21,890 bases of DNA from Pseudomonadota bacterium (GTDB lineage: Bacteria; Desulfobacterota; Syntrophia; Syntrophales; JADFWA01), in contig JADFWA010000072.1 in the NCBI GenBank assembly GCA_015222855.1, forward strand, positions 1-21,890, read 5' to 3'. Of this stretch, positions 27-11,369 are shown piece by piece. A program made the position numbers and the translations under genes. The notes below the pieces were generated by a model, which worked only from the letters and a program-made list of their open reading frames with translations, made no database searches and was not told where the DNA came from. Within the stretch, counting starts at the first letter, position 1. Each line of letters begins with the position of its first letter.

Positions 27-36
27 TCTTAAATGA

Positions 37-135
37 AAATATCAAAATAGAAAATTTAAAAATAAAATGAGAAGATCATAAGATGTGATGATAGCTCAGA
101 AAGGCTTTTAATTTTACTTTTTCATTTTGATATTT
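37..135. repeat. AT-rich inverted repeat in the rplW-rplB spacer
   Basis: The left arm at 37-54 (aaatatcaaaatagaaaa) and right arm at 119-135 (ttttcattttgatattt) are reverse complements over 17 bases with one bulged A, separated by 64 nt. The rplW-rplB spacer is 131 bp. The sequence could form a long RNA stem upstream of the rplB ribosome binding site, or be the remnant of an inserted palindromic element. AT-richness makes some self-complementarity likely by chance, so confidence is moderate. Confidence 0.45.
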
Positions 136-157
136 GATATTCGAGGGATTAGGACAG

Positions 158-985: not shown

Positions 986-1267
986 ATGGCTCGTTCAATT
1001 AAGAAGGGTCCGTATATTGAAGAAAAACTTGTTAAAAAGGTAAGGAGAGCCGATGCTGCGGGAGACAGGAGTGTGATCAAGACCTGGTCTCGTCGTTCTA
1101 CAGTTACCCCTGAGTTAGTAGGGTATACCTTTGCCGTTCATAACGGAAAGAAATTTATTCCGGTGTTTATCACCGAGAACATGGTTGGACACAAGCTTGG
1201 TGAATTCGCGCCAACACGGACATTTTACAGTCATGCTGGTGACAGGAAATCGAAGTTACGCAGATAG
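986..1267 (+). CDS. rpsS: Small ribosomal subunit protein uS19
   Basis: The 93-aa protein begins [15 protein letters not shown] and carries the S19 signature around residues 53-75 ([23 protein letters not shown], shown here in part). S19 binds the 30S head near the A site with S13. The ATG lies 3 nt after the rplB stop, and its ribosome binding site (GGAGAAGGGG) is inside the rplB 3' end, implying translational coupling. The 170-bp gap after this gene is exceptional for this operon, where rplV normally follows almost directly. The gap is filled by the inverted-repeat element at 1276-1417. Confidence 0.97.
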
Positions 1268-1275
1268 TTGAGATT

Positions 1276-1417
1276 GATACCTTTACAAAACGTTCAATTT
1301 TGTTCAAGGTCAAGGAAGACGAAGATTTTAACCGCAGGAATACATTAAGTATTTTGAGGATTAAAAGCTGAGCCTGACGCAGAGATTGAGCAAAAGGGGA
1401 TGTTTTGCAAAGGTATC
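1276..1417. mobile_element. MITE-like 142-bp inverted-repeat element between rpsS and rplV
   Basis: Terminal arms at 1276-1291 (gatacctttacaaaac) and 1402-1417 (gttttgcaaaggtatc) are reverse complements at 15 of 16 positions. Three more pairs of arms keep the same centre (about 1346): 1298-1307 with 1386-1395 (9 of 10), 1323-1331 with 1361-1369 (8 of 9), and 1332-1343 with 1349-1359 (good but gapped). The whole element therefore folds as one long hairpin with a loop near 1344-1348. The 5-mer AGATT directly flanks both ends (1271-1275 and 1418-1422), like a target-site duplication. The element has no ORF of useful length. Deleting it with one AGATT leaves a 23-nt rpsS-rplV spacer that keeps the GGAG at 1423-1426. 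I infer a non-autonomous transposon-derived insertion. A structured regulatory leader is the alternative. Confidence 0.65.
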
Positions 1418-1437
1418 AGATTGGAGTTTAGAGAAAT

Positions 1438-1770
1438 ATGGAAACAAGGGCCATTGCCAAATATATCCGCATTTCACCACAAAAGGCAAGATTGGTGGTG
1501 GATATGATCAGAGGAAAAAAGGTTGAGGAAGCACAAAAGATACTGACCTTTACGAGGAAAAAGGCTGCCGGGATTGTTGAAAAAGCATTGAAATCGGCAA
1601 TTGCGAATGCCGCCCAGAATCCTAATATTGATGAAAATATACTTTATGTAAAAGAGGTATTTGTGGATCAGGGACCTTCCTTGAAAAGATGGAGAGCGAG
1701 AGCGCAGGGAAGAGCGGCCATGATAAAAAAGAGGATGAGCCACATAACCGTTATACTGGATGAAGAGTAG
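1438..1770 (+). CDS. rplV: Large ribosomal subunit protein uL22
   Basis: The 110-aa product fits the L22 family length, with the N-terminal [20 protein letters not shown] motif typical of the family. The long tunnel-lining beta hairpin and family signature lie near residues 74-105 ([22 protein letters not shown], in part). L22 lines the nascent-peptide tunnel and contacts all domains of 23S rRNA. The ATG at 1438 follows a GGAG at 1423-1426 with a rather long spacing of about 11 nt. Its immediate upstream DNA is the 142-bp palindromic element, so translation of rplV may depend on how that RNA folds. rpsC follows after 19 nt. Confidence 0.96.
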
Positions 1771-4787: not shown

Positions 4788-4837
4788 GGTCAAAGGTTAA
4801 GGGTAAAGGTAAAGGGTTAAAGTTACAGGTTGTTCTG
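4788..4837. repeat. GGTTAAAGG-type low-complexity repeat in the rplE-rpsN spacer
   Basis: The spacer holds imperfect reiterations of the unit (g)ggtaaag/ggttaaag, ending in gggttaaagttacaggttgttctg at 4814-4837. That last stretch matches 19 of 24 positions of the rplF-rplR spacer at 6117-6140. A looser relative (ctaaaggcaaagggttaaagg) lies in the rpsK-rpsD spacer near 11338. The unit has no coding potential. It is most likely a dispersed intergenic repeat or slippage-generated sequence. Confidence 0.45.
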
Positions 4838-11326: not shown

Positions 11327-11369
11327 TAAAAACAGGGCTAAAGGCAAAGGGTTAAAGGCTGAAGGATGC

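Follow-up and report, generated by a model that had tools for sequence, protein, structure and literature searches.

The usual view of MITEs is that of passive relics recognised by their ends, and in the Correia/NEMIS elements of Neisseria those ends are of one kind and the target duplication is TA. MITEs have been held to be small because their transposase and further core sequence decayed (PMC10969869). A bacterial MITE within an operon, as in the case described here, is Chunjie of Geobacter uraniireducens; a 2008 title cited in PMC10969869 presents it as inserted without disturbing operon structure, while the text of PMC10969869 itself has it disrupting one of two phosphate uptake operons. 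Chunjie differs in being 235 bp long, with 37 further copies in its genome (PMC10969869), and the likeness drawn here is one of description; the passages on Chunjie in that article do not mention different ends around a single interior. Correia elements are likewise short mobile inverted repeats built around a conserved core; they can influence the genes beside them, and they bind RNase III and are cut or protected by it (PMC2649163). In contrast, the present family has duplications of 4, 5 or 6 bp and seven classes of ends, and the copy that we analyse combines an AGATT duplication with GATACC ends. REP and REPIN sequences are likewise high-copy extragenic palindromes in bacteria, but REPs are given as 20–40 bp (PMC3733652), against 142 bp with target duplications here; length and duplications together do not agree with a REPIN, a palindrome of 20–40 bp moved by a RAYT. 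In the open-licence literature searched by title and abstract start, neither the present element nor any MITE interior shared by differing ends was found described.

The window, i.e., the whole stretch of 21,890 nucleotides that was analysed, contains part of the S10 operon. Read directly from the sequence, an imperfect palindrome of 142 bp is situated between rpsS and rplV; AGATT abuts it on both sides, and its two ends pair at 15 of 16 positions, all as the initial annotation had described. An unusual base is shared by both ends, GATACC standing in place of GAGACC. Downstream, the right AGATT is followed directly by GGAG and then by the rplV ATG. The features are collected in the table below. 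The window's list of open reading frames contains none of 80 or more residues overlapping the element, and a promoter and terminator scan of positions 1200–1500 gave no terminator-like site; its two promoter-like matches are weak and lie beyond the element.

Table. Coordinates of the element, its parts and the adjoining genes in the window.
Feature	Position	Strand	Basis
MITE of 142 bp with class A ends; its interior is in sense to the S10 operon	1276..1417	+	sequence, fold, BLAST, end classes
Target-site duplication AGATT, left copy	1271..1275	.	sequence
Target-site duplication AGATT, right copy	1418..1422	.	sequence
Left terminal inverted repeat GATACCTTTACAAAAC; class consensus GAGACCTTTGAAAAAT	1276..1291	+	end comparison
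Right terminal inverted repeat GATACCTTTGCAAAAC, minus-strand reading	1402..1417	-	end comparison
Conserved 98-nt interior, model R1, common to elements with seven end classes	1298..1395	+	
Helix 1, 5' side; partner 1382-1395	1298..1311	+	covariation structure
Conserved internal loop AAGGA, opposite 1376-1381 (GACGCA)	1312..1316	+	copy alignment
Helix 2, 5' side; partner 1358-1375	1317..1333	+	covariation structure
Conserved loop and helix 3, 5' side; partner 1349-1354	1334..1343	+	alignment, covariation structure
rpsS, upstream gene	986..1267	+	
rplV, downstream gene; GGAG 1423-1426 outside the element	1438..1770	+	

The RNA of positions 1266–1427 folds at −54.6 kcal/mol, compared with a mean of −28.9 kcal/mol for shuffled sequences (z −7.2; none of 200 shuffles folds as well), which bears out the long RNA hairpin proposed to lie before rplV. 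Such a strong hairpin just ahead of rplV, together with the compensatory changes among copies described below, is what a non-mobile cis-regulatory RNA native to the S10 operon would present; yet no family of Rfam 15 scores above its gathering threshold in the window (the best sub-threshold match has 20.3 bits against a cut-off of 100), and the same operon in the relatives read has no room for the element. Of 41 genomes, 39 yielded rplV, and loci were obtained for 29 relatives; in the 28 with both genes readable, the rpsS-rplV spacer measures 18–102 nt, too short to hold the element. Since the readable relatives lack this room and many copies, with target duplications, lie elsewhere, we reject a native S10 regulatory RNA, which is left exceedingly improbable. 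The absence of the element from relatives agrees with what had been expected of a mobile element. The empty spacer of 23 nt predicted by the initial annotation lies within the range of the relatives, but the congener (G001) has 86 nt, with a single CAGATTGG and TTTGGAG before rplV; the prediction is plausible, yet the 23 nt are not preserved exactly. The element probably arrived after the split from this sampled congener.

Copies elsewhere speak for mobility. The genome assembly to which the window belongs (1.9 Mb, 423 contigs, 80.6% complete) gives 38 BLAST matches to the element at E ≤ 0.001; among these, one palindromic copy is counted again on its second strand. Besides the window copy, five are full length, at 84–92% identity, and the others are partial; many lie at contig ends, as is usual for repeats in such assemblies. 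Copies are bordered by 5-bp duplications of differing sequence, GTTGC, GCGAT and TTGAA among them. Among elements with the same class of ends (class A, see below), exact 5-bp duplications are present in 57 of 88, compared with 0% for randomly paired flanks, so the AGATT direct repeat is not due to chance. Counting the window's own genome, 7 of 60 genomes have BLAST matches. In G018, three copies at different sites show no difference over their 142 bp, which points to recent movement in that genome. Terminal inverted repeats, a duplication of fixed length, dispersed copies below 500 bp without a transposase gene and relatives' sites lacking the element are thus all found, and the element is a genuine MITE whose insertion between rpsS and rplV duplicated 5 bp of the target. 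The expectation of several copies with the same termini and variable 5-bp flanks, and with it the reading as a small transposon-derived element, is thereby upheld.

Other repeats occur in the same operon. A second AT-rich palindromic repeat occupies window positions 32–140, upstream of rplB; its matches number 69 in the own genome and 27, 11 and 5 in G002, G003 and G001, respectively, many of them just the ends of about 35 nt, on both strands. One match in G001 (C153:3802-3908, 87%) lies at the distance before rplV expected for the same site, and because of this position the repeat looks shared with the congener, unlike the element at 1276–1417. Short AAGGGTTAAAG-type repeats stand at window positions 4788–4822 and 11336–11357, in ribosomal-operon spacers, and AAGGGTTAAAG-like sequence makes up the central part of some elements that have class-A ends (L028-L030, L245).

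The interior of the element recurs across the phylum. A covariance model of the interior (R1), with at most 13 candidates scored per genome, was run on a sample of 297 genomes of Desulfobacterota and gave matches in 68 of them, and in 54 of the 199 genera sampled; counts of 13 per genome are lower bounds, because no more candidates were scored. A deeper search of five genomes, with 150 candidates each, gave 60, 123, 30, 26 and 24 matches, the 123 being contained in a genome of 1.7 Mb. G275 has 78 copies in 794 kb, in stretches taken mostly where matches were listed, and a scan of named genomes for the central motif returned at least 112 stretches. The 80 loci listed from it carry the titles Deltaproteobacteria, Desulfobacterales, Desulfobacteraceae, Syntrophobacterales, Syntrophaceae or named candidates of such groups, apart from 11 titled 'Proteobacteria bacterium' and one Olavius-associated 'proteobacterium Delta 3'.

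A profile search of the collected loci yielded 320 non-redundant copies, of which 42 are cut by an edge and 59 fit no class. The remaining 219 of the 278 untruncated copies fall into seven terminal-repeat classes: A (88), F (76), A2 (17), B (13), E (13), C (9) and D (3), with all but 7 of the class F copies coming from a single genome, G275. Exact duplications of 4 bp accompany 10 of the 17 class A2 copies (control 0.5%) and 44 of the 76 class F copies (control 3.1%); those of class B (6 of 13, control 4.3%) and class D (2 of 3, control 0%) are of 6 bp. Class E also shows exact 6-bp duplications in 6 of 13 copies, a count inflated by TANNTA targets (control 15.4%), and the 4-bp duplication of class C is poorly supported, at 2 of 9 copies against 14.5% in the control. 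The ends of the seven classes comprise roughly 22 nt each. Total length is 141 or 142 bp in 187 of the 219 classified elements; the search for ends reached no further than 36 nt from the interior, a limit that narrows the visible range of lengths.

Between classes, mean identity is 0.73 for the interior, with 0.71–0.91 at the 30 loop positions, and 0.48 for the termini, compared with 0.27 when the termini are shuffled; the largest interior divergence, between classes C and F, is 39%. Within a class, termini and interior are about equally conserved (0.86 and 0.87 in class A, 0.86 and 0.84 in F), and in class C the termini exceed the interior (0.82 and 0.66); therefore the ends vary between classes and not freely. 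By this comparison the ends hold constant within a branch and differ between branches, and the 98-nt interior is a phylum-wide module found inside seven terminal-repeat classes. By its position the window copy is an ordinary MITE insertion; what is unusual is the family, in which an interior is common to branches with differing ends.

This interior forms a hairpin whose stems covary and whose internal loops hardly vary. In 32 diverse copies, 94.1% of the structure cells pair and 22 of the 34 pairs have changed on both sides, the structure having been drawn from a copy set that overlaps these 32 and hence not being independent of them. Double-changed cells number 92, compared with a mean of 22.9 after shuffling (none of 500 shuffles reaches 92) and at most 19 for slid structures. 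RNAalifold, from which the structure was withheld, recovers 32 of the same 34 pairs. The internal loops are near-invariant across copies, although in those copies that were found via the central motif part of this conservation is selected for. Covariation can also result from arm-to-arm copying in a palindrome, and the paired GATACC-for-GAGACC change of the window copy looks like such copying, because the unusual base stands at both ends; however, arm-to-arm copying should also have erased the conserved mismatched loops. The initial annotation had set conservation with compensatory changes against a mobile origin; here both hold, the element being mobile and its interior conserved with compensatory changes. 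Five copies in G275 have about 33 bp extra at the same place of the interior (L353:18528, L335:9532, L345:3023, L351:10311 and L323:11888) and seemingly constitute a sub-lineage; L352:1700 is similar.

The near-constant length favours replacement of the ends in place over independent capture, and we infer that the ends may have been swapped around a standing interior. In the own genome, some matches cover positions 21/23–120 of the element alone and are bordered by other terminal repeats, and class-A ends surround other central sequence in L028-L030, L245 and L246; ends and centres therefore seem to recombine in both directions. Further arrangements were noted. L243:1901-1937 is a 37-bp miniature with little besides two class-A-like ends, and L026:1356-1472 is a class-C-like copy in which the hairpin loop is replaced by GTAGGGGCGTATTGCAATACGCCCTTAC, itself palindromic. 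In G001, four exact GAGAGCTTTGAAAAAT 16-mers occur without a close partner repeat (L238:1802, L239:2483, L240:290 and L241:1387), the one in L241 about 37 bases before a gene start.

For two of the end classes, insertion sequences with matching ends were located. Class B ends resemble those of L220 and L222, which contain ISNCY_1 transposases (425 and 443 bits, cut-off 325) and carry exact 6-bp duplications, TAGATA in L222 and CAACTA in L220, of the class B length; this subgroup of ISNCY we take to be ISDol1-like. Class C ends resemble those of L226, with an IS1182 transposase (398 bits, cut-off 270) and CTAG at both edges, the left side being at the contig edge. These insertion sequences differ from the MITEs in having a transposase frame of 457–531 amino acids and no match to the 98-nt interior, and the window copy belongs to neither class, but to class A. 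Movement of different classes by different transposase families is thus supported for two of them by ends and duplications, with an ISNCY-type (6 bp) and an IS1182-type (CTAG) enzyme as the candidates.

For the window copy, transport would have been in trans, by a transposase recognising GAGACCTTTG-type ends. The autonomous transposase with class A ends that had been anticipated did not come to light near open reading frames, in 20 added stretches, or beside transposases of chosen genomes, the search covering terminal-repeat pairs around open reading frames and the neighbourhoods of DDE_Tnp_1, IS5_4 and DDE_Tnp_1_4 in those genomes. Nor did the loci and chosen genomes searched contain transposases with class A2, D, E or F ends. 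Because contigs of metagenome-assembled genomes often break at repeats, failure to find the class A partner is weak evidence of its absence. The search left two leads. In L217 an IS5-like frame runs off the contig, with an IS5_4 match of 119.6 bits, below the cut-off of 140, and one GAGAGCTTTGAAAAT nearby. In L231 an A2 end pair surrounds a transposase fragment, but each end is part of a separate MITE copy.

The differing ends might instead reflect a young MITE family, spread by horizontal transfer, the same interior having been captured recently by several transposases. Copies that are identical in G018, or equal-scoring, as are four in G133, would fit this, as would ends about as conserved as the interior within a class; furthermore, the IS5, IS1182 and ISNCY transposase models cross-match, so ends may convert easily. 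A recent origin is difficult to reconcile with interiors that diverge as far as those of classes C and F while their loops stay and their stems covary, with presence in more than a quarter of the sampled genera, or with the narrow range of lengths, and we regard it as rather unlikely.

The orientation of the copies bears on whether the interior acts as RNA or as DNA. Gene calls were made with a crude longest-ORF caller, by which 12 of the 320 copies lie inside a called ORF. Between genes of the same direction, sense outnumbers antisense by 38:18 in the G275 stretches without a limit on gene distance; with the limit of 400 nt, G275 gives 35:16 (p 0.011) and the copies outside it 56:37 (p 0.06, not significant by itself), and the pooled ratio under the same limit and gene caller is 91:53 (p 0.0019). 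The window copy is itself in sense with respect to the S10 operon. This modest bias hints at an RNA role for the interior, with which it fits, but it could stem from replication direction instead.

As a second strand-specific measure, G-T and A-C cells were compared, being 224:51 in the interior stems of 107 unique copies and 85:22 in those of 36 diverse copies; two pairs that are usually G-T inflate both ratios. Per class, the counts are 84:25 in A (termini 14:12) and 49:14 in F (termini 17:9). Without pairs 40-58 and 41-57 they become 50:25 in A, 33:11 in F and 23:9 in class A representatives (p 0.02); representatives of the classes other than F give 36:23 (p 0.12), with 33:18 in the termini. 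With the same pairs excluded, none of the counts taken as distinct column types is significant. The excess did not survive removal of redundancy, and the wobble-pair test was dropped as support for an RNA role.

This outcome of the wobble-pair test would suit an interior acting as DNA, its mismatched loops preventing a perfect palindrome, and with it cruciform cleavage, or binding a host protein that aids any transposase. The conserved internal mismatches and the paired change at the ends of the window copy point the same way. Selection against a palindrome alone, however, would presumably not fix the exact letters of the loops, and the sense bias runs counter to a DNA role, which we consider unlikely.

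We think it probable, then, that the element is a MITE copy from a phylum-wide lineage, with a covarying hairpin interior of 98 nt and seven classes of ends. More tentatively, we propose that transcription of the operon includes the interior in sense, and that in the mRNA it folds as a hairpin by which the insertion does the host transcript no harm or even serves it; the hairpin might, for instance, be processed by a double-strand-specific RNase or be a site for an RNA-binding protein. Such a hairpin would be the reason why the element is tolerated in operons, and would allow it to sit there and persist whichever transposase carries it.

It may also be, although we hold this with reservation, that the 98-nt interior is itself the selected module, probably as RNA in sense, and has persisted phylum-wide by exchanging its ends in place, riding transposases of 4-, 5- and 6-bp specificity. 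If true, this would invert, across the classes, what is usual in a MITE, where the ends are conserved and the inside decays. A constrained interior with branch-specific ends suggests that something inside benefits the element or the host. The family offers a natural series for how a non-autonomous element changes transposase, and a testable case for how insertions survive in essential operons such as S10.
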